Shown in pieces: positions 9,034 to 41,485 of a stretch of DNA of 41,597 nt (its first letter is position 1; each line of letters starts with the position of its first letter). Below the pieces are notes generated by a model. That model ran no database searches. It was not told the DNA's origin and was given only the letters and a program-made list of their open reading frames with translations. Source of the DNA: a virus; IMG/VR virus record IMGVR_UViG_3300032164_000028, positions 1 through 41,597 of that record, one strand, 5' to 3'. A program made the position numbers and the translations under genes.

Positions 9034-12000
9034 GCCTAATTAGTGTTGGCGCAACGTTGCCTCTTGGCTACCAGCTCCACGATGGGGCAACGGGAAAGTT
9101 CGTCCGGGCCCACGTCCGGGACCAAGCAAATGCTGCTGTCACGGGGTCTCCTTTTGCCCTGACTCATGTTGCGCAAGGGTTCTATTCGAACACCGCCTAC
9201 ACGGTGCTTATAGCCAACACGAAACTCAAGGCCACATATATTGTTTTCGATGACGCAGGTTTCACGATTGAGTCCGTATTCCATACGAGGGGCGCCGCTG
9301 AAACAGATGTGGAGACGCAGGTAGAGGTCGCGAGAACCGATGTCTTGACCAGACTGGGAACCCCTGCTGGTGCATCAGTATCAGCTGACATTGCGGCTGT
9401 GAAAGCTGATTCAGGCACACTGATTACGCGGCTCACAGCTGGTCGCGCAACGAACCTTGATAACCTTGACGCTACCGTGGGCTCACGCTCCACGCAAACT
9501 TCCGTCAACTCGATTCAAGCGGATACAGACGACATCCAGCTGAAGATTGGGACTCCAGTCGTAACGCTCGCAGCGGACATTGCCGGTGTGCAAACGACTG
9601 TCAACACCATCAACACCAGAGTCGGGTCCCCCGTCGGCGCTTCAATCTCTGCAGATATAGCTGCTGTGCAGACCACGGCGAATGCAGTCAACACTAAACT
9701 TGGAACTCCAGCAGGAGCTTCGGTATCCGCGGATATCGCCGCGATCAAAGCCGACTCCGGTACGCTGGTTACACGCCTGACAGCAGGTCGGGCTAGTAAC
9801 CTTGACTTTCTCGATGTGCTTTTATCCACGAGATCGACGCAGACTTCGGTCGATGCATTGCAGACCACTGCCAATACCATCAATACCAGGATCGGCGCCC
9901 CTGTCGGTGCATCCATCTCAGCAGACATTGCAGCAGTGCAGACCACGGCCAATACTATCGACACCAGGATCGGTGCCCCAGTCGGCGCATCAATCTCTGC
10001 CGACATCGCTGCTGTGCAGACAACTGCCAGTGCAATCAACACCAAACTTGGAACCCCAGTTGGGGCTTCGGTCTCCATCGACATTGCCGCTGTGCAAACC
10101 ACAGCTACTGCGATCAATACCAAGCTCGGCACTCCAGCGGGTGCTTCCGTCTCTGCAGATATCGCGGCAGTGAAGTCCGATACTGCTACCTTGACCTCGC
10201 GCCTTACTTCCGGTCGCGCGAGCAACCTTGACTTCCTTGATGTGCTCTTATCGACGAGAGCAACGCAAACTTCGGTTAACTCGGTTCAGGCCGATACGGA
10301 CGATATCCAAGTGAAGATCGGGACTCCGGTTGGGGCTTCGCTCTCCGTAGATATCGCAGCCGTGCAAACGACTGCAAACGCAATCAACACCAAACTTGGA
10401 ACTCCCGCAGGAGCTTCCGTCTCTGCAGATATCGCGGCAGTGAAGTCTGATTCCGGTACACTCATTACGCGCTTGACCTCGGGTCGGGCGAGCAACCTTG
10501 ACTTCCTCGATGTGCTGCTATCGACGAGAGCTACGCAGACTTCAGTCGACGCAGTCCAGGCCGACACAGATGATATTCAAGTGAAGATCGGGACTCCGGT
10601 TGGGGCTTCGCTCTCCGTAGATATCGCAGCCGTGCAAACGACTGCCAGTGCAGTCAATACCAAGCTCGGCACTCCTGCTGGAGCTTCGGTCTCGGCGGAT
10701 ATTGCAGCGGTCTTCTCGCGCATCGGTGCTCCTGTCGGCGCCTCGATCTCCGCAGACATCGCGGCAGTCAAGACGCAGCTCAATAGCATCGAAACCAAAG
10801 TAGACGACCTCAGCAGTGCTTCGGATAGTGCAATCAGCATACCGTCGACCTTCCTAGTGCCTACAACCGGGACCAACATCTTCCGCATCTACTGGCGGCA
10901 CTTTGCTGCAGGGATTCCGGACAATCCATTCTCTGGTCCAGACATCAACATAGAAAGGTCGAACGGAACCGATATCGTGGCGTCCACGGCGATGACCCTG
11001 GAAGTGACTGGCGTCTACTACTACGACTACTCGGTACCCGATACTGCAGATAATGGGATTCAGGTGATCGTTAAAGTCGACTACGTGAACGACTCCGGCG
11101 GACCGACGTTCCAAGCGATTGCTACCGCTAACCAAACCAGCTCGGCCAGTGCCATCGACGATATTCTTACTATCCTCGGCACACCAGCAGGCGTCTCTGT
11201 GTCGGCGGATATCGCGGCACTGCAGACTACGTCCAACACTATTAACACGAAAATCGGAACTCCTGCTGGGGCTTCGTTATCTGCAGACGTTGCAGCAATC
11301 TTCTCGCGCATCGGCGCTCCTGCCGGAGCATCAGTCTCAGCAGATATTGCAGCCGTCAAGGCTGATACCGCTACCCTGACTTCACGACTCACTTCGGGCC
11401 GTGCAACAAACCTCGATAATCTGAATGCTACGGTTTCCAGCCGTTCTACCCAAACTTCGGTCGATGCTATTCAAGCAGATACCGATGACATTCAGGCGAA
11501 GATCGGCACTCCAGTTGCCACTCTTGCTACCGATATTGCAGGCGTACAGACCACGGCGAATGCAATCAATACCAAACTTGGAACTCCTGCTGGAGCCTCG
11601 GTTTCGGCAGACATTGCGGCTGTGAAAGCTGATACTGCTACCTTGACTTCGCGTCTGACCTCTGGTCGCGCTAGCAACCTCGACTTCCTTGATGTGCTCT
11701 TATCGACGAGAGCTTCGCAGACTTCGGTCAACGGGATCCAGTCAGACATCGACACGCTTGAGCCGACGATTGCGGGAATCGCCTCGGATACAGCAACCTT
11801 GATCCTGCGCCTCACAGCAGGTCGCGCCAGCAACCTTGACTTTCTCAACGTCTCGGTTTCAAGCCGCGCGACACAGACTTCGGTCGATGCAGTGCAGACC
11901 ACGGCAAATACTATCAACACCAAGCTCGGCACTCCTGCTGGGGCCTCTGTCTCAGCAGACATCGCTGCAGTTAAAGCCGATACCGCGGCCATCCTCGATG

Positions 12001-19492: not shown

Positions 19493-22400
19493 ATGAGAAA
19501 TTTTGACGCCACCCAGCAATCGCAATCAGTAAAGACATCGGCCGTGGATGCGGTTAAAAGCATCTTTCCTGTGGTCGGTAAGATCCGCACAATGCAGCTC
19601 GATAATGTGTGGGTAGAGGAAAAGGCTGATCTAAACGACTACGCCGCCCAGGCAAAGACGAAGACCCAGGAAGGCACTTGGGGTGTCCCTGTGTATGCAA
19701 GCCTCTCGCTTATTGAGAACCAGAGTGGCAAGGTGGTCGACAAAGCCCCGAGAATTAGGTTGTTCCTTTTGCCTATGGTCACGGATCGCTCCAGCTACAT
19801 CGTAGCTGGCAACGAATATCAAGTTAATAACCAACTGAGACTCAAGACCGGGGTTTACACGGTCAGGAAGCAAAACGGTGAGCTCAAAACTCAGGTTAAC
19901 CTGGCGAAAGGGAAAAACTTTGACCTCGGATTTAATGAGGCAAGTGGTGTCTTCACCCTACAAAAGGTCGGCGGCGGCCAAACGAACATTCCTCTTTATC
20001 CTATTCTTACTCATCTGGGTATATCTCCTTCTCTCATTGCACAAACCTGGGGGTCTAAACTGGAGGCTGTGAACCAGCGTGGCGACCCAAAGTCGGTTGC
20101 GCGTGCGGAAACAGCTTTTGGGGCGCAGAAAGCTGGGCTCTCTGAGTACTTCAAGAAGACCGAGATCTCCAGTGCGACAACCAAAATGGTGCTGGGAACA
20201 GGATACGATAAAGTGGACGGGCCTATGCTCTTGGCCTGCTCAAAAAACCTCCTGGAAGTGCAGCTCGGAAAGAAGGATGCCGTCGACCGCGACTCCCTCG
20301 CTTTCAAGGAGCTCCATAGCATCGAGGACTTTATCAAAGAGCGGCTTGAGAAGAATAAGAAGGACCTGGCCTATAAGATTCAGCGGCAGATTGATTCCTT
20401 GCGCCGAACCAAGGTGACCCAAATCGTCAACCCTGGGCTCTTTAGCGGAGTCGTGCAAAGTTTCTTTACGCAGGATGATAAATCATCCACTCCCGAGCAG
20501 ACTAATCCTTTGGAAATGCTCTCCGGGGCGTACAGGGCTAGCTTCATGGGTTCTGGCGGGATCACCTCGCAACACGGAATCAAAGACGAGACGCGGCAGA
20601 TCCATCCTTCGCACTACGGGTTCATTGACCCAGTTCATACGCCAGAATGCTACGACGAGGAGACCGAAGTTTTTACTAGAGAGGGTTGGGCTTACTGGAA
20701 AGATGTGACACCCGCAACTGGGTTTGCATGTCTCATTGATGACCGCCTTGATTTCTGTTCAGCAGAAAAGCTCCACCAGAGCCATTTCAAAGGGGAGATG
20801 TATGGTGTCGAGAACGGTAAACTGAACTACTTAGTGACGGCAAATCACCGGATGCTTGTAAGGCCGCTCGACTCTGCTCCTGATAGTTGGAGAATCGAAA
20901 CTGCAGAAAAGACGCACGGCCGACCACGCACTTTCAGGGTAAGCCACAAGGCTTACAAAGGAAAGCAAGAGTCAGTAGCCCGCCTTGAGCACGTGAAGGG
21001 GAGCAATGCCTCCATCAATATTGAGTCCGTACCCATCGGCGACTGGTGTGAGCTTTGGGGTTGGTTTTTGTCTGAAGGGTCTGTGTCCTTCAATGAAGCG
21101 AACTCAGCGTACTTCGTCCGAATCCATCAGAACGATGCGGCGAACCCCGAGAAGTGCCGACGCATAGAGTCTCTACTGGACACGCTGCCGTGGAGCTGGT
21201 GCCAGGACAAAGAGAAGACAACCTACACTCTAAGCACCAAGCAGCTAGCTTGGCATTTTGAATCGCAGGGAACACAGGAGCGCCGTTTCATTCCTACTGA
21301 GCTATTTGATGCCCCCGTTAGCGCACGTCAACGGATGCTTGACGCAATGCTGCTTGGCGACGGCAGAACGTACAGCAATCGCCCTAAAGGGGCCTCTTAC
21401 CCTCAACGGGTCTACTGCACGTCTAGCCCAAAACTTGCTAGAGATTTCGATAGGCTCGCTATCAGCTTAGGTTACTCGACGACCACGGCTTGTTACGAGG
21501 ATAGGCGGAAAGAGTCCTACCATGACATATTCGAGATTCGGATCCTTCGCAGCACCGTGCGCTCAGCACGTAAATTCAACCACCGTTCAGGGAAGAGTGA
21601 TTACGTTAAAGTAGATTACGATGGAAGGATTTACTGCGCTACGGTCCCCGGAGGCCTTCTGCTAGTAAGGCGGAAAGGAGGGGTCGCCTTTTGGTGCGGT
21701 AACAGCGATAAAATCGGTGTAAACCTGCATTTACCGATGGGTGTGGTGAAAGACGGCAAGGACCTAAGAGTCCAATTGGATAACGCCAAGTCTGGTAAAA
21801 GAGAGCTTTTAACCCCTGTCGAAAGCTGGGAGAAGTACGTGGCCTTTCCTGGGCAGACAGGCGATTCGCTAAAGGTCATGCACCAAGGCGCAATCCAAAC
21901 TGTGCCCCGCTCAAAGGTGGATTTTTACACACCGAGCGCCACCATGCTGTTCTCGCCATCGACCAACCTCGTCCCCTTTCTGCCGGCGAATCAAGGCAAT
22001 CGGGCTATGATGGCTTCCAAAATGCTCGAGCAAGCGATAGGTCTCAAGCATCGTGAGGCCCCGCTTGTTCAAGTAGGTGTCGCCCCCGATGTCTCCATGG
22101 AGCAGCTGGTAGGGAAGAATATTGCGGCACATGCGCCGGATGCGGGGACCGTTAAGAAAGTGACTGCAGACGGTATCCTGCTTGCGACAGCCAAGGGCGA
22201 CGTCAAGGTCAACCTCTACAACAATTTCACGCTAAATAGGAAGTCGTTTCTTAACCATACCGCACTCGTCAAAGAAGGCGATACGGTAGCCAAAGACCAG
22301 CTTCTAGCTGAGAGTAACTTTACTAAAGACGGCACTCTTGCGTTGGGCATAAACCTCCGCACAGCCTACATCCCTTATAAGGGCTACAACTTTGAGGACG

Positions 22401-25400
22401 GAATCGTCATCTCACAGTCCGCCTCTGAAAAGCTGACAAGCGAGCACATCTATAAGAAAACCTACGAGATTTCCAAGAACTCCATAATGAAGCTACCTTC
22501 GTTCAGGGCGTTCTACCCCAACGCAATCACTGCCGCAAATGCGGCCAAGCTCGATTCGGATGGGGTTATAAAGAAGGGCCAGCGCGTTAAAACAGGTGAT
22601 GTGATCATCGCCGCTCTGCAAAAAAGGAACCCAGACGCACGCATCGCGGTCATCAGCAAGACACTTTCAGAAAGGCCAAAAGATGCCAGTATCTACTGGA
22701 CTGCTGAGGACGAAGGGACTGTCACAGAGGTTCAAAGAGGGACTGGTTCGGTCTCCGTTTTCATAAAAACTGAAGAAGCTGCGAGAATTGGCGATAAGCT
22801 CTCTGGCCGGATGGGCAACAAAGGGATCATTACTAAGATCCTTCCTGATGACCAGACGCCCCGCGATGGGAGCGGAAAGCCGGTCGATATCCTACTCAAC
22901 CCTCATGGTGTCATCGGCCGGATCAATATCGGGCAAATCTATGAGTCAGCCGCCGGAAAAGCCGCACTTAAAAACGGTGCCCCCTACAAAGTCGAGAACT
23001 TCACAGGGCAAAATTACCTTGGGACAACTCGAAAGTTTCTCAAGCAGTCAGGCGTTAAGGATAAAGAAGAGCTCTTCGACCCTGAAACAGGTAAGAGTCT
23101 CGGCGATGTCCACGTTGGAAACCCATATATACTTAAGCTCTTTAAGCAATCCGCAGGCAACTTTTCAGCTCGGCAAGGGGGACCTGGATCTACCTACGAC
23201 GCCAATATGCAGCCCGTTAAAGCTGGAGGAGAAGAAGGCTCAAAAAGTCTAGATCTTCTGACGATGTACTCCATGCTCTCGCACGGGGCAAGGGCTAACC
23301 TGCAAGAGATGTCTACGCTTAAAAGCAACAAGAACGATGAGTACTGGACCGCTCTGCGTGGGGGCCAGCAGCTGCCGCCGCCTAAAGCGCCCTTCATCTA
23401 CGATAAGTTCATCGCCTACTTAAAAGGCGCTGGTATAGACGTTACCAAAGACGGCACCAAGTCCACACTTGGGCCGCTTACCGACAGTCACGCACTTGAG
23501 ATGTCTTCGGGTGCGGTTCAAAAGCCTCACTTTTATCATGCAAAAGATTTTCAGCCGGTTAAGGGCGGGTTTTTTGATACCAGGACTTTTCAGCCGGTTA
23601 AGGGCGGGTTTTTTGATACCAGGACTTTTGGTGGTCTTGCTGGTAAAAAATGGGGGCATCTGGACCTGAAGGAGCCGGTAGTCAATCCAGTCTTTGAGGA
23701 CGCTGCCCGAAACCTTCTTGGCCTTGCTGGTAAGTTTGACGAAGTCGTCGGCGGGAAGCTCTTTGTGCAAAAAGATGGCTCCCTTACCAAAGGCAGTGCT
23801 GGCGGCCTGACTGCTGGTGCCGGTATTGAGCGCCTATTAAAGAACGTTGATGTCGATACGCAGCTGGAGAGCCTGACAAAGAAAGCCGCGGGCTTTACTG
23901 GCACAAAGCTGAATGATGCCAACAAAAAACTTCGCTACCTGACTGCGCTCAAGACACTGAATATGAAACCCCACGAGGCGTATATCCGCCGCAATGTGGC
24001 TGTGCTTCCGCCCATCTATCGCCCTGTCTACCCGCTTCCCGATGGGAGCATGGCCAGCTCGGATGTGAATACCCTCTATCAGAAACTGGGCGTCGTCAAT
24101 TCGATGATGCAGCTTCCTGTCATGTCCCTTCTCCCCGAAGAGGAAAAGGCCAATATCCGGCAGGACCTCTACAATCATGTGAAAGGTGTAGCGGGCCTGA
24201 TGGACGTGACCACAAAGGGCAAGGTAAAGGACGGTCTCATCGCGCAGATTAAGGGCGGCACGGGCGGTCAGCCCAAAGAGGGCCTTTTCATTAGTAAGCT
24301 CTTGAGCAAACAGCAGGATTTTGTGGGGCGCGGCACTATTATTCCCGAGCCCTCCCTTGGCATCGACGAGATGGCGATGCCTGAGGAGATGGCCTGGAAA
24401 CTCTTTGAGCCATTTGTCGTCCGTGAGCTTAAAAGCATGGGAAAAAATCCGCTGCAGGCAAAAGAGGAGATCAAAAAGAAATCAGCGCTTGCCAAGCGAG
24501 CTCTGCAAATAGTCATGAGCACGCGGCACGTTCTTCTGAACAGGGCGCCGTCACTTCATAAGTTTTCGATCATGGCGTTTAAGCCGAAGATCACCGATGG
24601 CAAGGCACTCAAGATCCCACCGCTGATAGTGAAGGGATTTAATGCAGATTTCAATGGGGATTCCATTGATATTACTACCATTATTAACGTCAGGTATAAT
24701 AAAAATGAGTTGACTCAAGAGCCCCTTTGGGTTTATCACTCTCTTGTTGCCGGCAATCTTTTTGAAATGGTCACGGGTAAAACTATCGACGAGATGGTGG
24801 CTGAGGCCCGTGGTTTTACAGCGATCTACGAGATTGCTGGGGGGAGGTTGCAGACAATGTCAATGATAGATGGAAGCCCAGAATGGACCGATGTTCAGCG
24901 CCTTACTGTCCACACGTCTCACGGGCCTTGCTATGAGGTACTGACTCATACAGGAACCCGCGTGATCACGACCGAGCACCACAACTTCAGCTATATCAAT
25001 GAGGCGTTCGATCTGTGCTGCATAAAAACCGAGGTGATGCGGCCTGGGGTGCTGCTGCCGAAAGCATTGCCCAACATAGGCTCTAGCAACATCCAAACTC
25101 TAAAGATCTCGAACGTCACGCATCGACTTGACGAGGAGATGGCGTGGGTTCTTGGCTTTTACGCAGGAGACGGGTCCGCGTCGGACGCGACGGTTTCTTT
25201 CTGCGACACGGACCCAGTCGTCATGAAGCATATCTGCGGCATTCTGCGTCGCCGCTTTAATTTCGGAACAAAGCTCCAAGGTACAAAGCTCCATAAGGAT
25301 TGCATTGCGAGGCTCTATAGCAAAGAGCTTTGCAACTGGTTTACGGAAAACTGCGGTGCTGGGTTTGCCGACGTAAAAATTCCGACGGAAATCTTCAACA

Positions 25401-28054
25401 GCCCACACGCAGTCAGGCTCGCCTACGTACGCGGAGTATTTCAGGCGGAAGGCAGCGTTGGCCCAGACGCGTACGGTAACTACCAAGCTCGGCTTGAGAT
25501 GTGTAACTTCCCATATGTCGAGTCCCTTCGCTACCTCATGTCTTCCGTTGGCCTTGACGCGTACCTCGCTGAATGCCTCCACGAAGGCCGGCAGACCGGC
25601 CACCTTCTGAGGCTGCGAAAGTCCTGTATGGCTACACTCCAGCCGGTCCTAAGCAAAAAACAGGAAAAGTTGGCTGAGGCGGTGCGGGTGAAAGATAGCC
25701 GCCGGCACCGGGACGGTTACGATATTGTGCCGTTCTCAAAAGCACTGCTCGACGAAGTCGTCGCCATAGGCCATAGGCACAAAAGCCTTTCAAAAACTGA
25801 TAAAGCAGCAGTCGCCGAATGGAGGGCGAAAAACCCTGGCAGGAAAATCTCCGCCATGGATCATTTTAAAGGTAACCAAGAGTTTGTCTCGCGCCATATA
25901 GCTTTTGATGTCATCCATACTTACGGAGCTCTGGCCTCACCCTACTTTTTGAAGTGGGCGGGTCTTGTCAAGGACGAGCGTCTTCGCTGGGAACAGGTGC
26001 TGAGCATCACGGAGGTTCCGAGGAAAGAGGTTATGTTTGACTTTACGGTCCCGCGTGGCGAGATGTTTCTCGTGCAGAATGGGCTTTTCACCCACAATAC
26101 CATGACTGTGCACGTCCCTGTCGGCGAGGAAGCCAACAAGGAGGCCGCTCGGCTTTTGCCTTCTAGAAACCTGTTTCAACCCGGCACAGGCTCGCTCATG
26201 ATCCAGCCTTCGCAGGAAGCTCAGATCGGGCTTTTCTACCTCTCGCAGACCCCAGCGGGCAGGCAGAAGATAAATGCTCTTCTGCCCGATAAGTATAAGA
26301 TTTCGGCCATGCTGGATAAGAAAGCTACGAACACGCTGACGATGGCGCTGGCGAAGGAATTGCCCGCAAATCAATACGGCACTATCGTTGCGGCGCTTAA
26401 GGCTGAGGGTGAGAAGCACGCTTTTGAGCGGGGCTTTACACTCGGCATGGATGATATCGCTCAGTTCGGTGCTATGCGAGATCGCATCGTCGACGCTGCC
26501 GATAAGGCTGCGAAGAAGGCCAAGACCCCAGAAGAGCTGATGTCGATCAACAAGCGCGCGTCCTCCCTCATTGATAAGATGATCGACCATAAGCTCGTTG
26601 GGAAAGACAACCCTCTCTACGATATGGTGCAATCTGGTGCGCGCGGCAACAGCAGTCAGCTGCGGCAGATCATTGCCTCTCCGCTATTCATGTCTGATGA
26701 GAAGGGGCGGATTGTCCCGACAGCGATCAAGAAGTCTTACGCCGAGGGGCTGGATATCGGGGATTATTGGATCTCGATGTACGGGGCTCGTCGCGGAATG
26801 ATGGATCGCGCAATTCAGACTTCGCTGCCCGGCGCATTCTCCAAAGACATCATGGCGACCACGATCAACAACGTGGTTTCCATGGAAGACTGCGGAACCC
26901 ATGAGGGGGTCACCCATAAACTAGACGACAAGGATGTGTTCGATCGGTACATGGCCGGCGACCAGGGCGGCTACTCGCACAATACGCTAGTGGACACGCG
27001 TGTCCTCTCGGATCTAAAAAAACACGGGCTCTTGCAAGTGAAGGTGCGAAGTCCGCTGCGTTGCCTGGCACCAAAGGGCACTTGCGCCAAATGCTACGGC
27101 ATAGACGAGCATGGCGGAGCGCCGCCGGTTGGCGACAATATCGGTTCGAAGGCGGGGCAGACGATGTCCGAGCCATTAATACAGATGGTCATGCGGACAT
27201 TTCATACTGGCGGGGCTGCGGGTACAGGCGCTGATGCTCAAGGCTATGCGCGAGTCAACCAGCTGCTGCAGATGCCGAAAATTGTGGTGGGCGCTGCACC
27301 TCTTGCGGCCAAGGATGGCAAGGTCTCGAAGATCACCAAGGGCCTCGGCGGTGGATTTGATGTGACGCTTGAGGGCTCTGTCTACCATGTGCCTGCAGGT
27401 AAACCGCTCAAAGTTTCTGTGGGCAGCAGGGTAGCTATCGGCGATCCGCTCTCAGAGGGTGTGGTGAAGCCGCAGGACCTCGTGAAACTCAAGGGGATGG
27501 ACGCGGCACAGGACTATATTGCGAGCGAGCTGCAGAAGTCTTACGCGGGGCAGGGCATTCATTTGCACAGGAAGATCTTTGAGACGGTCGTGCGCTCGCT
27601 GGGTAACACGACCCAGGTTCAGAACAACCCTAAGGACACGGCCTATCTACCGGGGGACATCATCCCTTACACCGTAGCTCAGGACTACAACCGTAATCTT
27701 GAAGTTACAAAAACCCCAGATGACGCGGTCGGCTATAAGCTCAGTAAGGCAACGGAGGGCATGCGCGAAGGCCATACCGTAACGCAGGCCGATGCTGATG
27801 TTATGAGGGCTCGTGGCATTAAAGAGCTCACGATTAAAAAAGACCCATTGATCCATGCACCTCTGCTAAAATCCCTCAAAACGCTGCCGCTCCTGAGTAA
27901 GGATTGGATGGGCTCGCTTGGCTACCAGCAGCTTCAGAAGGCGCTAACGCTCGGGGCAGGGCAGGGCTGGTCAACGGATACGTCGGGCTATCACCCTATT
28001 CCTGCTTTTGCGCAGGGCGTGGCATTCGGTAAAGGAAAGGATGGTAAGTATTGA
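19493..28054 (+). CDS. Fused beta/beta-prime DNA-dependent RNA polymerase with two inteins
   Basis: 2853 residues, about 2022 after splicing. Beta part: SSYIVAGNEYQVNNQLRLK-TGVY (~105), GGITSQHG and YGFIDPVHTPE (~355-385), INLRTAYIPYKGYNFEDG (~960), GDKLSGRMGNKG, ILLNPHGVIGRINIGQI. Beta-prime part: PVKGGFFDTRTFGG with WGHLDL (~1355-1395; the usual N-terminal zinc finger is missing), LPPIYRPVYPL, HVLLNRAPSLHKFS, NADFNGD (1717-1723), then after the intein TMTVHVPVGEE, YGARRGMMDRAIQT (bridge helix/trigger loop), EDCGTHEG and CLAPKGTCAKCYG (zinc site), MVMRTFHTGGAAG. It is very bacteria-like. No alpha, omega or sigma is visible. The middle catalytic Asp is Asn1721. It leads the operon to 31735. 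Confidence 0.95.
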   Translation: MRNFDATQQSQSVKTSAVDAVKSIFPVVGKIRTMQLDNVWVEEKADLNDYAAQAKTKTQEGTWGVPVYASLSLIENQSGKVVDKAPRIRLFLLPMVTDRSSYIVAGNEYQVNNQLRLKTGVYTVRKQNGELKTQVNLAKGKNFDLGFNEASGVFTLQKVGGGQTNIPLYPILTHLGISPSLIAQTWGSKLEAVNQRGDPKSVARAETAFGAQKAGLSEYFKKTEISSATTKMVLGTGYDKVDGPMLLACSKNLLEVQLGKKDAVDRDSLAFKELHSIEDFIKERLEKNKKDLAYKIQRQIDSLRRTKVTQIVNPGLFSGVVQSFFTQDDKSSTPEQTNPLEMLSGAYRASFMGSGGITSQHGIKDETRQIHPSHYGFIDPVHTPECYDEETEVFTREGWAYWKDVTPATGFACLIDDRLDFCSAEKLHQSHFKGEMYGVENGKLNYLVTANHRMLVRPLDSAPDSWRIETAEKTHGRPRTFRVSHKAYKGKQESVARLEHVKGSNASINIESVPIGDWCELWGWFLSEGSVSFNEANSAYFVRIHQNDAANPEKCRRIESLLDTLPWSWCQDKEKTTYTLSTKQLAWHFESQGTQERRFIPTELFDAPVSARQRMLDAMLLGDGRTYSNRPKGASYPQRVYCTSSPKLARDFDRLAISLGYSTTTACYEDRRKESYHDIFEIRILRSTVRSARKFNHRSGKSDYVKVDYDGRIYCATVPGGLLLVRRKGGVAFWCGNSDKIGVNLHLPMGVVKDGKDLRVQLDNAKSGKRELLTPVESWEKYVAFPGQTGDSLKVMHQGAIQTVPRSKVDFYTPSATMLFSPSTNLVPFLPANQGNRAMMASKMLEQAIGLKHREAPLVQVGVAPDVSMEQLVGKNIAAHAPDAGTVKKVTADGILLATAKGDVKVNLYNNFTLNRKSFLNHTALVKEGDTVAKDQLLAESNFTKDGTLALGINLRTAYIPYKGYNFEDGIVISQSASEKLTSEHIYKKTYEISKNSIMKLPSFRAFYPNAITAANAAKLDSDGVIKKGQRVKTGDVIIAALQKRNPDARIAVISKTLSERPKDASIYWTAEDEGTVTEVQRGTGSVSVFIKTEEAARIGDKLSGRMGNKGIITKILPDDQTPRDGSGKPVDILLNPHGVIGRINIGQIYESAAGKAALKNGAPYKVENFTGQNYLGTTRKFLKQSGVKDKEELFDPETGKSLGDVHVGNPYILKLFKQSAGNFSARQGGPGSTYDANMQPVKAGGEEGSKSLDLLTMYSMLSHGARANLQEMSTLKSNKNDEYWTALRGGQQLPPPKAPFIYDKFIAYLKGAGIDVTKDGTKSTLGPLTDSHALEMSSGAVQKPHFYHAKDFQPVKGGFFDTRTFQPVKGGFFDTRTFGGLAGKKWGHLDLKEPVVNPVFEDAARNLLGLAGKFDEVVGGKLFVQKDGSLTKGSAGGLTAGAGIERLLKNVDVDTQLESLTKKAAGFTGTKLNDANKKLRYLTALKTLNMKPHEAYIRRNVAVLPPIYRPVYPLPDGSMASSDVNTLYQKLGVVNSMMQLPVMSLLPEEEKANIRQDLYNHVKGVAGLMDVTTKGKVKDGLIAQIKGGTGGQPKEGLFISKLLSKQQDFVGRGTIIPEPSLGIDEMAMPEEMAWKLFEPFVVRELKSMGKNPLQAKEEIKKKSALAKRALQIVMSTRHVLLNRAPSLHKFSIMAFKPKITDGKALKIPPLIVKGFNADFNGDSIDITTIINVRYNKNELTQEPLWVYHSLVAGNLFEMVTGKTIDEMVAEARGFTAIYEIAGGRLQTMSMIDGSPEWTDVQRLTVHTSHGPCYEVLTHTGTRVITTEHHNFSYINEAFDLCCIKTEVMRPGVLLPKALPNIGSSNIQTLKISNVTHRLDEEMAWVLGFYAGDGSASDATVSFCDTDPVVMKHICGILRRRFNFGTKLQGTKLHKDCIARLYSKELCNWFTENCGAGFADVKIPTEIFNSPHAVRLAYVRGVFQAEGSVGPDAYGNYQARLEMCNFPYVESLRYLMSSVGLDAYLAECLHEGRQTGHLLRLRKSCMATLQPVLSKKQEKLAEAVRVKDSRRHRDGYDIVPFSKALLDEVVAIGHRHKSLSKTDKAAVAEWRAKNPGRKISAMDHFKGNQEFVSRHIAFDVIHTYGALASPYFLKWAGLVKDERLRWEQVLSITEVPRKEVMFDFTVPRGEMFLVQNGLFTHNTMTVHVPVGEEANKEAARLLPSRNLFQPGTGSLMIQPSQEAQIGLFYLSQTPAGRQKINALLPDKYKISAMLDKKATNTLTMALAKELPANQYGTIVAALKAEGEKHAFERGFTLGMDDIAQFGAMRDRIVDAADKAAKKAKTPEELMSINKRASSLIDKMIDHKLVGKDNPLYDMVQSGARGNSSQLRQIIASPLFMSDEKGRIVPTAIKKSYAEGLDIGDYWISMYGARRGMMDRAIQTSLPGAFSKDIMATTINNVVSMEDCGTHEGVTHKLDDKDVFDRYMAGDQGGYSHNTLVDTRVLSDLKKHGLLQVKVRSPLRCLAPKGTCAKCYGIDEHGGAPPVGDNIGSKAGQTMSEPLIQMVMRTFHTGGAAGTGADAQGYARVNQLLQMPKIVVGAAPLAAKDGKVSKITKGLGGGFDVTLEGSVYHVPAGKPLKVSVGSRVAIGDPLSEGVVKPQDLVKLKGMDAAQDYIASELQKSYAGQGIHLHRKIFETVVRSLGNTTQVQNNPKDTAYLPGDIIPYTVAQDYNRNLEVTKTPDDAVGYKLSKATEGMREGHTVTQADADVMRARGIKELTIKKDPLIHAPLLKSLKTLPLLSKDWMGSLGYQQLQKALTLGAGQGWSTDTSGYHPIPAFAQGVAFGKGKDGKY
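20648..21703 (+). mobile_element. Intein 1 in the beta part, with LAGLIDADG endonuclease
   Basis: Residues 386-737 (352 aa). It interrupts the beta motif HTPE/SDKIGVNLHLP, which is continuous once removed. N-terminal Cys386 starts the splicing block CYDEETEVFTREGW; TANHRM is block B (TxxH type). LWGWFLSEGS (521-530) and MLDAMLLGDG (615-624) are the two dodecapeptide motifs of a LAGLIDADG homing endonuclease. The C-terminal blocks are CATVPGGLLLVRR and FWCGN, followed by Ser738. The penultimate residue is Gly, not the usual His; some active inteins tolerate this. The acidic residues of both endonuclease motifs are present. Confidence 0.93.
23552..23629 (+). repeat. Exact 39-bp tandem duplication at the beta/beta-prime junction
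   Basis: 23552-23590 is repeated exactly at 23591-23629, encoding QPVKGGFFDTRTF twice (residues 1354-1366 and 1367-1379). The segment is the beta-prime motif related to GGLFCERIFG. The duplication is in frame. Confidence 0.95.
24662..26098 (+). mobile_element. Intein 2 inside the catalytic motif, with LAGLIDADG endonuclease
   Basis: Residues 1724-2202 (479 aa). It lies directly after NADFNGD; joining the flanks gives NADFNGD-TMTVHVPV, matching the catalytic loop of bacterial beta-prime. Ser1724 is the first residue, block B is VITTEHHNF, the endonuclease motifs are LGFYAGDGS (1887-1895) and VRGVFQAEGS (~1979-1988), and the C-terminus is FDFTVPRGEMFLVQNGLFTHN, split here as FDFTVPRGEMFLVQ and NGLFTHN, then Thr+1. 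Polymerase activity therefore needs splicing. Catalytic residues differ from intein 1 (Ser/His-Asn/Thr against Cys/Gly-Asn/Ser), so the two were probably acquired independently. Confidence 0.93.
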
Positions 28055-28395
28055 TGGACTATGTAATTTTTTACCATGGCACCTGGTCTGAGGCCTCGCG
28101 CAGCATGAAGCAAAAGCTGGACAGGCACAAGGGCGCCGATAGTGTTGAGGTTCGGGAAGTCGACGTAGATAAGGCCACAACGCCTCCGACGTATGATGGC
28201 CAGCTTATCCGCTCTCTCCCCTTTTTGGTGCGGCACGAGAACGGACGTCCTGTCGATCACCTCGTGGGTGACGTTCCTGAGGGTGCGGTGCGCCGCTTCG
28301 TTGCCAGAACTCGGACAAAGACGGCTTTCTGGGTTGGTTTTGATAAGGCTGCTGTGCACCATAAACACCCCGAGCTGAAAGAGGAAGTTTTATGA
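28054..28395 (+). CDS. Thioredoxin-fold protein without CxxC, with C-terminal FW-x-GF tag
   Basis: 113 residues from ATG 28054, overlapping the polymerase stop. Start VIFYHGTWSEASRSMKQKL has the thioredoxin beta1-alpha1 layout, but the active-site Cys pair is replaced by GTWSEAS. The cis-Pro segment (RSLPFLVRHENGRPVDHLVG) is in the usual place. A short tail carries KTAFWVGFDKAA (~88-99), the motif found at other positions in nearby proteins. Without cysteines it cannot be a normal redox enzyme; a binding or scaffold role is more likely. The stop overlaps the helicase start (ATGA). Confidence 0.7.
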   Translation: MDYVIFYHGTWSEASRSMKQKLDRHKGADSVEVREVDVDKATTPPTYDGQLIRSLPFLVRHENGRPVDHLVGDVPEGAVRRFVARTRTKTAFWVGFDKAAVHHKHPELKEEVL

Positions 28396-29822
28396 GCGCC
28401 TTTTTGCGAGGCTTTCTGAAGCAGGCAAAACTCCGTGAATCCACGAAACTAGAGCCGCACCAAGTCAGGGTTCAAGAGCGACTGAAGAAGACGCCAGGGC
28501 TCCTCCTCTATCATGGTCTAGGCAGCGGCAAGAGCCTCTCAGGAATTGCGGCTTCACAGGGCGAAAAAACGGACGTCGTTGTGCCTGCCAGCCTTCGCGG
28601 CAATTTTCAGAAGGAAGTGCAGAAGCACACGACCGGCTACAAGCCTAATATCATGAGCTACGATAAGGCGGTCAAGACTCCTGCAAGGGGCGATACTCTG
28701 ATCGTAGATGAGGCCCATATGCTCGGCACGCCTGGCTCGATGAGAAGCCAGGAGATGCTTAGAAAAGCCCCTGAGTATAAAAAGCGGATACTGCTGACAG
28801 GTACCCCAATCCGCAACCACCCTTATGAGATCGCCCCTCTGCTGAGGATGGTGCGCGGCGACGAGGCGGTGCCGACTGACCCAAAGGCGTTCAACGAGCA
28901 ATTCATACGCGAGCAGAAGATAAGCCCCGGATTCCTAGCCAGGATTCTCCACGGAGCCAAGAACGGGATCGAGTACAAGATTAAGAACCCTGATAAATTC
29001 TCTTCTCTGGTCCACGGCTATGTCGACTATCATGCGCCCGCCAAAGAGAGTTTTCCCGCGGTCACCCACGAGAGCATTAGCGTCCCTATGAGCGGTGAGC
29101 AGATGAAGTACTATGACTTTGTCATGGAAAAGGCAGGACCGGCGCTCAGATATAAGATCCGGCGCGGCCTCCCTCCATCGAAAGCCGAAGCTACCCAACT
29201 GAACACGTTTTTATCCGGCGTGAGACAGGTATCCAACAGCACCAAATCCTTTGGCGGAACGGAGACCTCTCCTAAGATCCAGAGGGCGGTGACGGCTCTT
29301 CAAGATCTGAACGCTAAAGACAAGAACTTCAGGGGGCTCGTCTATTCGAACTATCTCGATGCCGGTGTCCGAGAATACGCCAGTCAACTCAAGTCGTCTG
29401 GAGTCTCTCACGCAATCTTTGATGGGAGTCTCTCCGATTCCAAGCGGAAGGCAATGATTGCCGACTACAACACTGGCAAGGTGAAAGTCTTGCTTATCTC
29501 CGGCGCAGGGTCCCAGGGCCTGGATCTGAAAGGGACTAAACTCATCCAATTGCTCGAACCGCACTGGAACAATGCAAGACTCGAGCAGGCCGAGGGTCGG
29601 GGAATTCGCTATAAGAGCCATGACCATCTTCCAGAGGACGAGCGACATGTCCTGGTGCAAAGATTCCAGTCGACCATACCCAAGTCATTTACCCAAAAGA
29701 TTCTGGGTCAAGATCCTGATATGGGAGTCGACCAATATCTCAGCATGCTCTCCGGCAAGAAGGATGCGCTGAATGCGCAGTTTCTGAATATTCTAAAACA
29801 GCAGGGCAGCGCGCCCGTATAG
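28392..29822 (+). CDS. SNF2/superfamily-2-like DNA helicase/translocase
   Basis: 476 residues. Motifs: Walker A HGLGSGKS (41-48), DEAH box LIVDEAHM (103-110), motif III LLTGTPIRN (~134), then the second RecA-like domain with GLVYSNYLDAGV, VLLISGAGSQGLDL and motif VI QAEGRGIRYKSHDH (~420). This is the order of SNF2-type ATP-dependent DNA translocases, similar in compactness to viral D6/NPH-I-type transcription helicases (family comparison is inference). It begins MSAFLRGFLKQAK, a copy of the recurrent tag. It follows the polymerase gene directly, so it may assist transcription or DNA ejection. Confidence 0.88.
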   Translation: MSAFLRGFLKQAKLRESTKLEPHQVRVQERLKKTPGLLLYHGLGSGKSLSGIAASQGEKTDVVVPASLRGNFQKEVQKHTTGYKPNIMSYDKAVKTPARGDTLIVDEAHMLGTPGSMRSQEMLRKAPEYKKRILLTGTPIRNHPYEIAPLLRMVRGDEAVPTDPKAFNEQFIREQKISPGFLARILHGAKNGIEYKIKNPDKFSSLVHGYVDYHAPAKESFPAVTHESISVPMSGEQMKYYDFVMEKAGPALRYKIRRGLPPSKAEATQLNTFLSGVRQVSNSTKSFGGTETSPKIQRAVTALQDLNAKDKNFRGLVYSNYLDAGVREYASQLKSSGVSHAIFDGSLSDSKRKAMIADYNTGKVKVLLISGAGSQGLDLKGTKLIQLLEPHWNNARLEQAEGRGIRYKSHDHLPEDERHVLVQRFQSTIPKSFTQKILGQDPDMGVDQYLSMLSGKKDALNAQFLNILKQQGSAPV

Positions 29823-32493: not shown

Positions 32494-32787
32494 TCACTTG
32501 CGCTTTTTAGGAGGAGTTCGGACGAGGTCTCTAAACTCTTTTCCGGCCTTGAACCGAGGCACAGTCGCTGCCGGAATCTTGACCTCGCCCCCTGTTTGGG
32601 GATTACGTCCAATGCGGGCTTGGCGAACGGTCGGATGAAACGAGCCAAAACCCACCAGGGAGACCCTCCCGCCGTGAACGACTTCCAGTTGAATGGCTTG
32701 GGTAGTCAGCTTGATAATCTCCCGGACAGTGGCCTTGGAGATGCCTGCACCTTCGGCGACAATTGAGGTTAGCTCTGCGAGATTCAT
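32494..32787 (-). CDS. HU/IHF-family DNA-binding protein
   Basis: 97 residues from ATG 32787 (AAGGGA upstream). The family pattern is clear: an N-terminal two-helix dimerisation region (LTSIVAEGAGISKATVREII), the strand GGRVSLVGFGSFHPTVRQARIGRNPQTG, and the C-terminal helix VPRFKAGKEFRDLV with a basic tail. HU-family proteins dimerise and bend DNA. In a phage it may act in replication, transcription or packaging. Residues 1-13 of a longer frame (from 32820) are probably untranslated. It lies 80 bases downstream of SSB on the same strand, likely one operon. Confidence 0.92.
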   Translation of the reverse strand: MNLAELTSIVAEGAGISKATVREIIKLTTQAIQLEVVHGGRVSLVGFGSFHPTVRQARIGRNPQTGGEVKIPAATVPRFKAGKEFRDLVRTPPKKRK

Positions 32788-32867
32788 GCGATTCCCTTTC
32801 TTTGGGTAAAAGACAAACACTATTGAGTGCCTGTGAAAATTGCAAGGGCCAGTGTTTACAGCTGGAC

Positions 32868-33380
32868 CTAAAACGGTATATCGTCCAATGAAGCATCGAA
32901 TTGAGCCGTGCTGTTGGGTTTTGCTGCGGTGTTCGGCTTTATTACGGGCCCTTTGCCCACTGCTCTTGGCGCGGCCTGCTCCCTGGGCGCTGGCTGGCTA
33001 GCCTCTTCAGCTACTTGCCCTATCACACTCTTTTCCGTTTCGCCGTAACCATCGAGGTACTTCAGTCCAAAGGGGTCTACCTGGATCTGCTTTTCCGCGC
33101 GCTCTTCGCCGGCAGTTGTCGTGTACTTTCGGGTTTTCGTTCTTCCCTCGATGTAGACTGTACTGCCCTTGCTGAGATACTTGGCCGCGTTCTCTGCAAC
33201 CTTTTCCCATACGATGGCTTTGTGCCACTCCACCTCTTTATGCCGCTCCCCGCTATGGGACGTCCACTCCTCGTTGGTAGCCACGCTTAACACGCAGTAA
33301 GCCTTGCCTTCGGTGGTATGGCGCAGCTCAGGGTCCTGCCCGAGATTACCCACGATAATAGCCTTGTTTACGGACGCCAT
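32868..33380 (-). CDS. ssb: Single-stranded DNA-binding protein
   Basis: 170 residues. ATG at 33380 with TAGGAG six bases upstream. The OB-fold pattern is complete: MASVNKAIIVGNLGQDPELR, then SVATNEEW, EVEWHKAIVWEKVAENAAKYLSKGS (given here in two parts: EVEWHKAIVWEKVAEN, AAKYLSKGS), VYIEGRTKTRKYT. A Pro/Ala-rich linker follows, and the C-terminal tip DDIPF matches the acidic peptide that recruits replication partners. It protects ssDNA in replication and recombination. First gene of the leftward SSB-HU unit, divergent from the baseplate spike gene. Confidence 0.95.
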   Translation of the reverse strand: MASVNKAIIVGNLGQDPELRHTTEGKAYCVLSVATNEEWTSHSGERHKEVEWHKAIVWEKVAENAAKYLSKGSTVYIEGRTKTRKYTTTAGEERAEKQIQVDPFGLKYLDGYGETEKSVIGQVAEEASQPAPREQAAPRAVGKGPVIKPNTAAKPNSTAQFDASLDDIPF

Positions 33381-37794: not shown

Positions 37795-38664
37795 ATGGCA
37801 TTACCTTATGACAACTACATCCGGTTCTTAGCAACAAAAGGTCATGTGGATCTCGACGAAGTCAATGAGTTGCTAGGGAACTTCTCGCTGCCGCCAATCA
37901 AACAGGCGACCCTTGACGATCAGTGGGCCTTGATCCACTCCTCTTTGCCTCTGGGGGTCAAGTCTCAGCTGGAGAACAGAAGCCAGGGCGGTGATGAGTT
38001 CCTTCGCTGGATGAGCTTTCTGGAGGTTCAGCACTACTGGCTGGCAGAGAAGCCCTACGCAACTGCCGAGCGGAGGTCAGCGGTGCGGGTCATGGAGAGC
38101 ATCCATGACGACCAGATGCTGCGGCTGGCCATCAACGCGCTTTTTATCAAAGGGGTCCAGCCCAAGGAGATGCTGCAGTCCCTATCGGCAAAGTACCCGA
38201 CACCTCTGCGTGACAATCACCTGGAATCTTACCGGGACATGTTTTGGAACACTAGGCGCATGCACCGCCGCGACTGGAAATCGTATTTGGGCCTCGTTAG
38301 CACGCGCGAACAGTCCGTGTACTTCCTCGCCCTGACGGACACTTTGGATGTTGTTAAGACCGAGCTGGAGCTACCCTCGAGCGTATCGGTCAGCAATATG
38401 CTGCAGTGGCTTCTCTCCAAATCTTTCCAAAAAGCCAAGACGCTGATCGACGTCAACTCCCCGGATGCCGCCAAGGAGGCGCGACTGTGGATCGACAAGG
38501 CGATCGTTCTGGCGGACAAGTACGAGAAGTACAGGTCCACGGACCAGGCCGATCTGTCGCAGTCCCTGCAAATGGAATTCGATTTCGTGGATACCGAGTT
38601 TGCGGCCCCGGACGATGAGACGCTCCGCGAAGTCACCGAGCGGATAAAAGCCAAGACCACATGA
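37795..38664 (+). CDS. Candidate small terminase subunit (289 aa)
   Basis: ATG 37795, weak AGG site, 6 bases after the previous stop. All helical. A central segment MLRLAINALFIKGVQPKEMLQ is helix-turn-helix-like, and the C-terminus has DAAKEARLWIDKAIVLADKY and an acidic region. It is the gene before the large terminase, as small terminases usually are. Its TGA overlaps the ATG of the small frame at 38661 that appears to be the original terminase start. The role is inferred from position and the HTH-like segment. Confidence 0.5.
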   Translation: MALPYDNYIRFLATKGHVDLDEVNELLGNFSLPPIKQATLDDQWALIHSSLPLGVKSQLENRSQGGDEFLRWMSFLEVQHYWLAEKPYATAERRSAVRVMESIHDDQMLRLAINALFIKGVQPKEMLQSLSAKYPTPLRDNHLESYRDMFWNTRRMHRRDWKSYLGLVSTREQSVYFLALTDTLDVVKTELELPSSVSVSNMLQWLLSKSFQKAKTLIDVNSPDAAKEARLWIDKAIVLADKYEKYRSTDQADLSQSLQMEFDFVDTEFAAPDDETLREVTERIKAKTT

Positions 38665-38739
38665 GCCATATGAACGCGCCGTGCAGCCCCTTTTGGACTG
38701 AGGGGACCGGTTACTTGCGAGAAGCCCGTTACAGATGGG

Positions 38740-38755
38740 TTTCAAACTGTACCAC
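38740..38755 (+). repeat. 16-bp direct repeat, copy 1
   Basis: TTTCAAACTGTACCAC. The second copy is at 39134-39149, offset 394 bases. Neither copy extends further. Both are read in the same codon phase, as SNCTT. Confidence 0.95.
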
Positions 38756-38789
38756 TTCTGTACCGCTCCGGCAAAGTTCTGAAGGGGGT

Positions 38790-38805
38790 AAATCGCCTAT
38801 AATAA
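38790..38805 (+). promoter_or_regulatory. Promoter-like motif, copy 2 (with TATAAT)
   Basis: AAATCGCCTATAATAA; TATAAT at 38798-38803 is a perfect -10 hexamer. It matches 14 of 16 bases of the motif at 3707-3722, with the -10 boxes aligned. It would drive the terminase gene from inside the AT-rich segment. No clear -35. Confidence 0.55.
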
Positions 38806-38833
38806 TAATAACTTAGTCTTAAGAAGTCAGTTG

Positions 38834-39064
38834 TTGTTACATTTTTACAATTGTTACAGCGAAAACTAGTCTCATATACGAGAAAAATATTTCTTCTCAT
38901 CTGCCCATGTGCCATAGCGACACCACGAGAAGCGTGTTTTTTTCGTATACATGTCTCTGATTTTCACAATTCTCTGTAACTTGTAACATTTGCCTGCAAA
39001 CCCATGGTACCAAAGGTGTTCAGCTGTTACTGAAATGAAACGTCAAAAAAACAATTTGTAACAA
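38834..39064. promoter_or_regulatory. Cluster of TTGTTACA/TGTAACAA sites
   Basis: TTGTTACA at 38834-38841 and 38851-38858 (17 bases apart), inverted TGTAAC at 38975-38980, TGTAACA at 38982-38988 and TGTAACAA at 39057-39064; TGTTAC also at about 39025. The segment is AT-rich and has no gene. Other features: GAGAA/TTCTC around an AT-rich loop near 38880-38898, and a short CACG/CGTG hairpin followed by a T-run near 38922-38943. Could be operators, origin iterons or a packaging site. Confidence 0.5.
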
Positions 39065-39120
39065 TTATTTTGGCGTAGACGGTAACGTATTGTAATAGTA
39101 AATAAATTAGGAGAGGCACT

Positions 39121-40923
39121 GTGAAAAGTGAGATTTCAAACTGTACCACCGAGGGCGAAGAAGAGGACGAAGAGGCGGCCTACCACGACAGTCCGGCGCT
39201 ACCAGACGAAAAATCAGTCGCATGCGTCACAAGGGCAGTCAATAAGAACGGAACTCTGCGGGAAATCTTCAAGGCCAAAAAGTCGGACTTCGTCAGAAAC
39301 CTCATTTTCTTGGATGGCGCCAAATTCGACTTCACCGGAAGAGGTTACCTGCGGCCTCTCTACGACTCGAACCACAAGCGGGTCCTGCTCAAAACGGCGC
39401 GTCAGGTGGAGAAGACAACGTACCTCGCTAACAACCTGACGATCACCTCTGTCGTCACCCCGTACAACAAGAGCCTCTATGTCTCCCCGTCCCACACCCA
39501 GACGAGGCAGTTCAGCAACGAGAAGCTCAGACCATCCATAGAGCGCAGCCCCTACATTAAGAAGTACTTCCAGGATAGCTCTGTCTCTACGCAGGTGTTC
39601 GAGAAGGGTTTCACCAACGGCAGCTACATCTTCCTTCGGTCAGCATTCAGGTCTGCGGATAGAACTCGCGGGATTTCAGCCCGGGTGTTGGCTTTGGACG
39701 AGGTTCAGGATTTTCTGACGACAGAGATCCCCGTTATCATGGAGTGTACCTCCCACTTTCCGGATGCTTCCAACCTGATGGCCGGAACTCCCAAGTCCCA
39801 CGACAACCCGATCGAGCTCTACTGGGCCTCGACAACCCAGAACGAGTGGATGGTGCCTTGCCAGAGCTGCGGGAAGTGGAACTTCCTGGACGAGACTAAC
39901 GTCGCCCCCACGGAGCTCTACACCGCCTACAAGCTGCCACCAGGTCCGGTCTGCAAGCGTTGCGCAAAACCGATTCACCCGCCACTAGGGCAGTGGGTCT
40001 CCTTTCAGAAGGGTCAAGCCATTCAGGGATACCGCATACCCCAGCTCATGGTGCCCTGGATCACGGGCATCGACGCCCAATGGCAGAAGCTGCTCTGGAA
40101 GCGGGACAACTACCCATTCGGCCAATTTAACAACGAAGTCCTGGGCCTATCCTTTGATAGCGCGAGTAAGCCAATAACGCGCGACGAGCTGATGGAGGTC
40201 TGCGGTGACTACGGACTTTGGGACCTGAGAACCCAGGCCGGAACCGAGCATGCCATCCACGATGCCGGAAGATACGCTCTGACGGGCGGGGTCGATTGGG
40301 GTGAGGGAAACGATGGCGCCGAGAAAAGCCCCTCTGGAAAGGTCAGGAACGCGTCCTACACGGTGCATACAATTGGCGGGTATGTGAATCAGAAGAAGTG
40401 GAAGGTCCTCTACATTCGGAAATACGAGGGGCGCGATATTGACCCTGACTTCGTCGTTCGGGACATTGCCAGGGTCACAAACCTCCTGGGTGTCAAGGTG
40501 ACAGGCGTAGACTGGGGCCATGGCTGGGGTGTGAACAACGTGCTCGTCCGTATGCTCGGCGTCAGCCGGGTCGCCCAATTTCAGTACCTGCCTAAGCTCA
40601 AACAACGGCTCAAGTGGGACTCGCTCGGGCAGCGGTTCCATCTGCAGAGAAACTTTATGCTATCCGAGCTCTTCTTTGACATCAAGCACGGGCTCGTAGA
40701 ATTCCCGAGATGGAAAGACTTCGAGTACTTTGCCAGGGACATTCTCGGCATCTACACCGAATACATCGAGTATCGGCGCGAGGTGAAGTACGACCACCGG
40801 CCCTCGGATCCGGACGACTTCTTCCACTCTTTGCATTATGCAAAGCTGATGTCCGATATCTATGCCGGTAAAAGTCGTCGGTACACCATTGATGCCGTCG
40901 ACGTCGGCGGCGGTTACTCCTAG
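39121..40923 (+). CDS. terL: Terminase large subunit
   Basis: 600 residues from GTG 39121; AGGAG lies in AGGAGAGGCACT just upstream. ATPase: KTARQVEKTT (91-100; Glu replaces the Gly before Lys of the classic Walker A), Walker B VLALDEVQ (Asp193 Glu194), coupling motif MAGTPKS (~220). A zinc-ribbon-like Cys4 (Cys247, Cys250, Cys278, Cys281) lies between. RNase-H-like nuclease: GGVDWGEGND (Asp392), VTGVDWGHGWG (Asp464), SDPDDFFHS (Asp565/566). It cuts concatemers and pumps DNA into the head through the portal. The N-terminus appears truncated and re-started (see the repeat at 38740). Acidic EEEDEEAA lies near residues 13-20. Confidence 0.93.
   Translation: MKSEISNCTTEGEEEDEEAAYHDSPALPDEKSVACVTRAVNKNGTLREIFKAKKSDFVRNLIFLDGAKFDFTGRGYLRPLYDSNHKRVLLKTARQVEKTTYLANNLTITSVVTPYNKSLYVSPSHTQTRQFSNEKLRPSIERSPYIKKYFQDSSVSTQVFEKGFTNGSYIFLRSAFRSADRTRGISARVLALDEVQDFLTTEIPVIMECTSHFPDASNLMAGTPKSHDNPIELYWASTTQNEWMVPCQSCGKWNFLDETNVAPTELYTAYKLPPGPVCKRCAKPIHPPLGQWVSFQKGQAIQGYRIPQLMVPWITGIDAQWQKLLWKRDNYPFGQFNNEVLGLSFDSASKPITRDELMEVCGDYGLWDLRTQAGTEHAIHDAGRYALTGGVDWGEGNDGAEKSPSGKVRNASYTVHTIGGYVNQKKWKVLYIRKYEGRDIDPDFVVRDIARVTNLLGVKVTGVDWGHGWGVNNVLVRMLGVSRVAQFQYLPKLKQRLKWDSLGQRFHLQRNFMLSELFFDIKHGLVEFPRWKDFEYFARDILGIYTEYIEYRREVKYDHRPSDPDDFFHSLHYAKLMSDIYAGKSRRYTIDAVDVGGGYS
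39134..39149 (+). repeat. 16-bp direct repeat, copy 2 (inside the terminase start)
   Basis: TTTCAAACTGTACCAC, identical to 38740-38755. It covers codons 5-10 of the current terminase frame. Confidence 0.95.
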
Positions 40924-40984: not shown

Positions 40985-41077
40985 TCTCTAACCACCGCAA
41001 ATTTCTGCTGAAGTCATCGTAAATTACTGCTAATGGTATTTACAGCGCCTGGAATAATTTACTTAAGTGGGGTTGAC

Positions 41078-41485
41078 GTGAGCATCGAAGCCATAGCCGC
41101 TAAAAGAAAGGCTCGCTATGAGAGGACGAAGGCTGAGGTCAGAAAGAAAGCAAGGGCATACTACCTTGCCAACAGGGAGCGGCTCTGCGCTCAAAGCAGA
41201 GAGTACGGCCGAAAGCACCGAGTTAGTAAAGCCGTTAAGACAAAGACGTATAACGAAGAAAACAAGGACCACATCCGGACAAGGAGTAGACACTGCAAGA
41301 CGAACAGGGAAGAGATAGCTGCACGGCGCGAGGGTTCCGCAGAGAGAAGAACCGAATACCAAAAAGAGTATTACAAGAAAAACAAAGATCGGCTAATGGC
41401 CACTCAGAAATTGAGGCGGGATAAGGAAGCACATGACAAAAGAGAAAAGGCGCGTTTGGGATCAGACGTACAAGGAAAAGCATAA
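41078..41485 (+). CDS. Probable HNH homing-endonuclease-type gene, N-terminal part (frame-broken)
   Basis: 135 residues if started at GTG 41078 (GGGG five bases upstream); an ATG frame from 41033 has no good signal. The sequence is built of short basic helical repeats: KARAYYLANRERLCAQ, SREYGRKHRVSKAV, KTYNEENKDHIRTRS, KEYYKKNKDRLMATQ. This Tyr/Asn-Lys/Arg pattern is typical of the repetitive N-terminal arm of phage HNH homing endonucleases (family comparison from memory). The frame stops at 41485 although the same repeat pattern goes on in the +1 frame from 41433. Confidence 0.6.
   Translation: MSIEAIAAKRKARYERTKAEVRKKARAYYLANRERLCAQSREYGRKHRVSKAVKTKTYNEENKDHIRTRSRHCKTNREEIAARREGSAERRTEYQKEYYKKNKDRLMATQKLRRDKEAHDKREKARLGSDVQGKA

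Follow-up and report, generated by a model that had tools for sequence, protein, structure and literature searches.

The spacer ahead of a phage terminase gene looks like duplicated operon-control DNA rather than an interrupted gene

The gene for the large terminase subunit (terL) of the phage studied here starts at the end of an AT-rich block bounded by an exact 16-bp repeat, which raises the question of whether the gene was interrupted by an inserted segment or whether the block is of another nature. The window, meaning the whole stretch of DNA that was analyzed, comprises 41,597 nucleotides (positions 1 to 41,597 of the IMG/VR virus record IMGVR_UViG_3300032164_000028). The exact 16-mer TTTCAAACTGTACCAC was confirmed at 38740–38755 and 39134–39149, in direct orientation and 394 bp apart, and the peptide SNCTT was read from both copies in the same codon phase, 79 nt past the ATG at 38661 and 13 nt past the GTG at 39121. 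The GC content drops from about 0.56 to 0.34–0.40 in the block, and both TATAAT at 38798 and AGGAG ahead of the GTG at 39121 are present by direct reading. No 16-mer direct repeat arose when 3000 sequences, each 486 bp long and matched in dinucleotide composition, were simulated, and TTTCAAACTGTACCAC with up to three mismatches had four matches in the window compared with 0.19 expected. The genes and signals concerned are as follows.

37795–38664, plus strand: 289-aa gene before the terminase, a small-terminase candidate by position only (open reading frame; homologues in outgroups).
38661–38816, plus strand: 51-aa open frame, the proposed lost N-terminus of the terminase; not a conserved gene by comparison with the relative L004.
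38740–38755, plus strand: left copy of TTTCAAACTGTACCAC (direct reading).
39109–39123, plus strand: Shine-Dalgarno-like AGGAG and GTG start of the terminase (direct reading; conserved in L004 and L005).
39121–40923, plus strand: terminase large subunit, complete (PHROG 675, E=1e-53; Pfam GpA_ATPase, E=1.7e-20; outgroup N-termini of similar length).

An earlier note had proposed that a 394-bp segment split the terminase gene, so that its removal would restore a single frame. The full-length terminase was found at 98–100% protein identity in five viral contigs, three of which represent the window's own strain, and the DNA identity to the window over this stretch was 89% for L004 and 92% for L005. 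L004 has a spacer of 455 bp, compared with 456 bp in the window, between the same two genes, and its terminase has the same GTG start, with KTEISNCNTEGE. The counterpart of the 38661 frame in L004 has ATAG in place of ATGA, leaving no ATG, as well as a 1-nt deletion ahead of the repeat, and its left copy reads CTAAAAACTGTAACAA, with 11 contiguous bases in common with the right copy. The identity between the window and L004 was only 62% at 38665–38767, compared with 89% in the adjacent coding DNA at the end of the 289-aa gene, which is what non-coding DNA would be expected to show. In the outgroups L008, L009, L015, and L016 (about 40% protein identity), the terminase N-terminus before the conserved KSD was similar or slightly longer, and therefore the window terminase is complete, with nothing missing. 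Apart from SNCTT being read in the same phase on both sides, the evidence thus goes against a split gene: L004 has the same block but the 38661 frame is not conserved in it, and the outgroup terminases carry no extra N-terminal exon. The minimal intron proposed in the same context had no Rfam family match up to E=5, and its upstream exon frame is not conserved in L004, while the interpretation of the repeat as a 16-bp target-site duplication conflicts with the dissimilar left flank of the block in L004. A terminase split by an insertion or intron is largely refuted by L004, and we regard it as extremely improbable.

The 289-aa gene had no Pfam or PHROG match, but homologues of it immediately precede terL in L009 (E=8e-15) and L015 (E=1e-9). 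All four outgroup contigs lack the spacer, and their terminase starts within the end of this homologous upstream gene, the overlap with the stop of the 296-aa gene being TAATG in L015 and GTGATG in L009; some upstream open frame also reaches or crosses the terminase start in L010, L012, L018, and L019. Because of this overlap in the outgroups, the spacer of about 456 bp is, as judged from these comparisons, lineage-specific, and the tight coupling of terL seems to be ancestral and the spacer derived, a polarity that we infer. The idea that a segment with expression signals entered this locus accordingly survives in part: a lineage-specific spacer that recurs in a relative probably did enter, and its place was between two genes rather than within the terminase gene.

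The two 16-mers do not stand alone: each contains one box, and further boxes of the CTGTAAC/CTGTACC family occur in the spacer. The box groups are located as follows.

38728–38764, plus strand: left box group, with an inverted GTTACA at 38728 and direct CTGTACC at 38747 and 38758; holds the left 16-mer.
38836–38858, minus strand: inverted TGTAAC boxes at 38836 and 38853 (three in L004).
38975–39062, plus strand: direct TGTAAC boxes at 38975, 38982, and 39057.

Counted on either strand, TGTAAC occurs 6 times in the window region, 10 times in that of L004, and 7 times in each of two copies, A and B, found in the contig G005 (see below), compared with 0.4–0.6 expected, and the observed counts were never reached in 5000 simulations for each region. 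Within the window, TGTAAC/GTTACA was found 6 times in the 440-bp spacer compared with 10 times in the remaining 41 kb, and the sequence of G002–G005 that was examined contained no further cluster of this kind. The left box group of L004 consists of GTTACA, CTGTAAC, and CTGTAAC with the same spacing as in the window. Three direct boxes bracket the block, at 38747, 38758, and 39141, all of which read CTGTACC in the window but CTGTAAC in L004; the right bracketing box is CTGTAAC in both G005 copies, and the inner boxes remain TGTAAC. Such a parallel AAC/ACC change at three boxes would be expected if one protein reads all three, and in the few sequences at hand it is suggestive of a single binding protein. 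The TATAAT at 38798 has no partner hexamer, and a promoter scan of the same strand gave nothing above chance; likewise, the scan of the block revealed no sigma-70-type promoter or terminator above chance, and the 451-nt spacer folded as DNA no better than its shuffles (z=-0.8).

A search for the block elsewhere in relatives, as the earlier note had advised, was successful, since its right part recurs in inverted orientation in G005, an 82,248-bp contig and the parent of L005. The G005 sequence matches the window from 38839 onwards starting at its first base, and 38839–39149 is matched again, inverted, at its last base. Counted from the contig ends, copies A and B are identical for exactly 127 nt, 94% identical over the next 110 nt, and 56% identical over the following 54 nt, after which GATTTCAAACTGTAACAC, the AAC form of an 18-mer, is again identical at 18 of 18 positions, and both copies end at this 18-mer. 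The duplicated module in the window can be delimited as follows.

38796–39150, plus strand: copy A of the proposed duplicated control module (left edge probable; right edge from comparison with G005 copy B).
39132–39149, plus strand: 18-mer GATTTCAAACTGTACCAC, the right edge of the module, which holds the right 16-mer at 39134–39149 (comparison of the G005 copies).

The contig G002 stops at 38796, immediately ahead of TATAATAATAATAACTTAGTC, at which point the window becomes strongly conserved with L004; judged from this contig end and the conservation, the left edge of the module is probably located near 38796 instead of at the left 16-mer (38740). An exact shared run of 127 nt at both contig ends is what a 127-mer assembler leaves at a branch, and therefore the true repeat continues beyond the G005 contig. 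The contig G001, from the window's own strain, ends at 38840, which suggests that this strain also has a second copy. The positions 38839/38840 were considered as termini of the phage genome and rejected, because the G005 ends share exactly the assembler k-mer size and because the window, L003, and L004 run straight through. The inverted copies at the ends of G005 (L027:1–127 and L031, reversed, 1–127) are identical over at least 127 nt, and the strains differ by 10% there; the module copies of G005 may have been homogenized by recombination.

According to simple ORF calling, the genes after copy A, beginning with terL, run rightward for about 16 kb, and those after copy B, which lies about 82 kb from the terminase, run mostly leftward for about 26 kb. 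Copy B adjoins a frame of 602 aa that weakly matches RecF/SMC and AAA_23 (E of about 1e-5, below the curated cut-offs), whose probable start is MLASIRIENVRGL (MLASIRIE) after the 18-mer. Both copies thus lie directly upstream of a gene, terL or the SMC/AAA_23-type ATPase, in the same relative orientation. The 18-mer is thus conserved as DNA between the two copies, serving as codons in A and, if MLASIRIE is the start, probably as part of an untranslated leader in B, and this invariance supports a control module. Copy B was seen in one relative only, G005, with its left flank beyond the contig end, and searches yielded no more loci with further copies or with this flank. Nor did any of 50,697 named phage records match the module. 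One motif match, in L043, lay inside an unrelated coding region and was taken as chance.

Taken together, the spacer looks like duplicated operon-control DNA rather than a gene interrupted by an insertion. On balance, we lean towards the view that it is promoter/operator DNA copied to the head of the terminase gene run, where it would uncouple terL and give it its own start signals. Two features expected of an operator module were found, namely more than one copy upstream of operons in the same relative orientation (G005 A and B) and statistically enriched repeated boxes. Speaking against this reading are the absence of any sigma-70-type promoter or terminator above chance and the presence of copy B in a single relative. 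In the proposed sequence of events, the module would have been copied to the head of the run and would have separated terL from the upstream gene to which it was formerly translationally coupled, so that terL would gain both a transcription and a translation start from the module. The boxes would be occupied by a DNA-binding protein that co-regulates the two operons; candidates are a regulator of the phage and the multi-subunit RNA polymerase that the phage encodes. The 16-bp repeat would then represent two boxes flanking the module, the sequences of which became identical in the window strain.

The main rival of the promoter/operator reading is that the module is a replication origin, in which the boxes within AT-rich DNA would act like iterons, or a packaging start beside the terminase, the second copy being a second origin or site. 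The AT-rich sequence with many repeated boxes in both orientations, the position beside the terminase, and the two inverted copies within one genome (G005) would all suit this explanation, and the duplicated box arrays could equally be origins. However, both copies are oriented alike to the next gene and end at most about 40 nt from its likely start, which suits a leader or promoter better; same-orientation copies heading gene runs favor a promoter/operator, since such an arrangement is dispensable for an origin or a packaging site, and copy B lies far from the terminase, beside the SMC-like ATPase gene. We consider an origin or packaging site the less probable interpretation. A more modest explanation holds that recombination or gene conversion made the two repeats identical over 16 bp, with no regulatory meaning, the spacer being otherwise ordinary intergenic DNA. 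This is compatible with the L004 copies having only 11 contiguous bases in common and with the long identity of the inverted G005 copies, but it leaves the box array, the conserved stretch 38798–38843, and the duplication unexplained, and it appears unlikely.

Slightly more improbable still is that the block is a small transposon of the IS1 family, or a MITE, with TTTCAAACTGTACCAC as the inner part of the terminal repeat TTTCAAACTGTACCACTACC. In a scan with the 16-mer and one additional base, the 20-mer TTTCAAACTGTACCACTACC was found in 37 genome stretches from at least seven phyla, where it bounds elements and short derivatives with 8-bp target duplications and a transposase matching DDE_Tnp_IS1, and the terminal-repeat match amounted to 18/22 and 19/22 for the window copies and 20/22 for G005-B, compared with best background values of 14–17. 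However, the terminal TACC is absent, as the right copy continues with CGAG and the left one with TTCT while real elements end in CACTACC. The window copies are direct and have no inverted partner; an 8-bp target duplication is absent, with differing flanks, compared with 13 real elements with exact duplications and one with a near-exact one; and the shared module probably does not begin at the left 16-mer. The relatives, moreover, all carry the AAC form, which did not turn up in other viral contigs or as a terminal repeat when 583 genomes from two phyla were searched, and two phylum-wide pattern searches returned only the ACC form, in genomes already known. Since the window fails each defining feature, namely the TACC end, the inverted partner, and the 8-bp duplication, a mobile element was rejected and a transposon is not demonstrable here. 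IS1-family elements with GGTAGTGGTACAGTTTGAAA have 16 bp in common with the window, whose block differs from them in lacking the TACC end, inverted partner, target duplication, and transposase, and the match to the IS1-type terminal repeat is unexplained and possibly coincidental. As a separate observation, it is the CTGTACC form (38747, 38758, and 39141; compared with L004 and L005) that makes both window 16-mers identical to the IS1-type terminal-repeat core. The IS1-family group with GGTAGTGGTACAGTTTGAAA and 8-bp target duplications (L049–L109, for example L072:1406–4956, L083:3003–5995, and L104:4699–8115) itself occurs in many phyla and in viral contigs, and includes passenger genes as well as very short derivatives (33–370 bp).

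Several other genes were recorded in passing. At 19493–28054 of the window lies a 2853-aa frame with RNA polymerase beta and beta' domains and with intein splicing and LAGLIDADG signatures, and a second intein-like insert is apparent by eye in its beta part. In distant relatives, the terminase large subunit at L013:1444–4410, and by sequence also that of L014 and L017, is interrupted by a LAGLIDADG intein, which in L013 sits just past the CGRQVEK motif of the ATPase domain. The window further contains a gene pair for an HU-like DNA-binding protein and SSB on the minus strand within a mostly plus-strand run (32494–33380), a 1980-aa frame of SVSADIAAVK-type repeats with many alternative alignments to one G004 region (9030–14972), and lysine-rich, repeat-built small proteins of the KEKIAAQRKAYRE type at 41033–41485, which were also found in G005 at 3953–4576, 28073–28504, and 28546–29076.

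Repeated control boxes at phage gene starts are already a known kind of element, and the module itself is without a match in named phages. Stoperators are scattered over the genome, whereas the boxes described here are, in the sequence available, confined to the module copies. The stoperators of mycobacteriophage L5 and cluster A are likewise repeated boxes, 13 bp long and operator-like, that take part in regulating transcription (PMC3203893). The Start-Associated Sequences (SAS) of cluster K mycobacteriophages are one 13-bp motif located at translation starts, with a partial potential for ribosome pairing (PMC3203893). The present case resembles SAS in having a short, repeated, phage-specific motif at gene starts at several genome positions, and differs in being a module of about 350 bp in which about ten boxes are arranged in two orientations and the last box lies inside the terminase frame. 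With its beta and beta' domains and its terminase, the window phage fits the Caudovirales that encode a multi-subunit RNA polymerase (PMC7481178) and is likely of the same kind, although in the window a single 2853-aa frame with intein signatures carries both the beta and the beta' domains. That paper, which does not use the term "promoter", reports no promoter module (PMC7481178), and only analogies to the present module came to light in the literature.

A bolder picture, which we put forward as speculation with a rather small chance of being right, is that a region of about 82 kb in an RNA polymerase-encoding phage is bracketed by a large inverted duplicate control module. The duplicates would be kept identical by recombination, which could flip the segment, and would be read by the phage polymerase, while the insertion would have uncoupled terL and the bracketing boxes would co-evolve with the binding protein.

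The analysis removes a false lead, namely that of a split gene, an intron, or a new mobile element. If the promoter/operator reading is true, the module would be a concrete promoter/operator candidate for uncultured phages with their own multi-subunit RNA polymerase, a group for which we found no described promoter, and it would mean that the tight coupling of packaging genes, as present in relatives, can give way to separate control.
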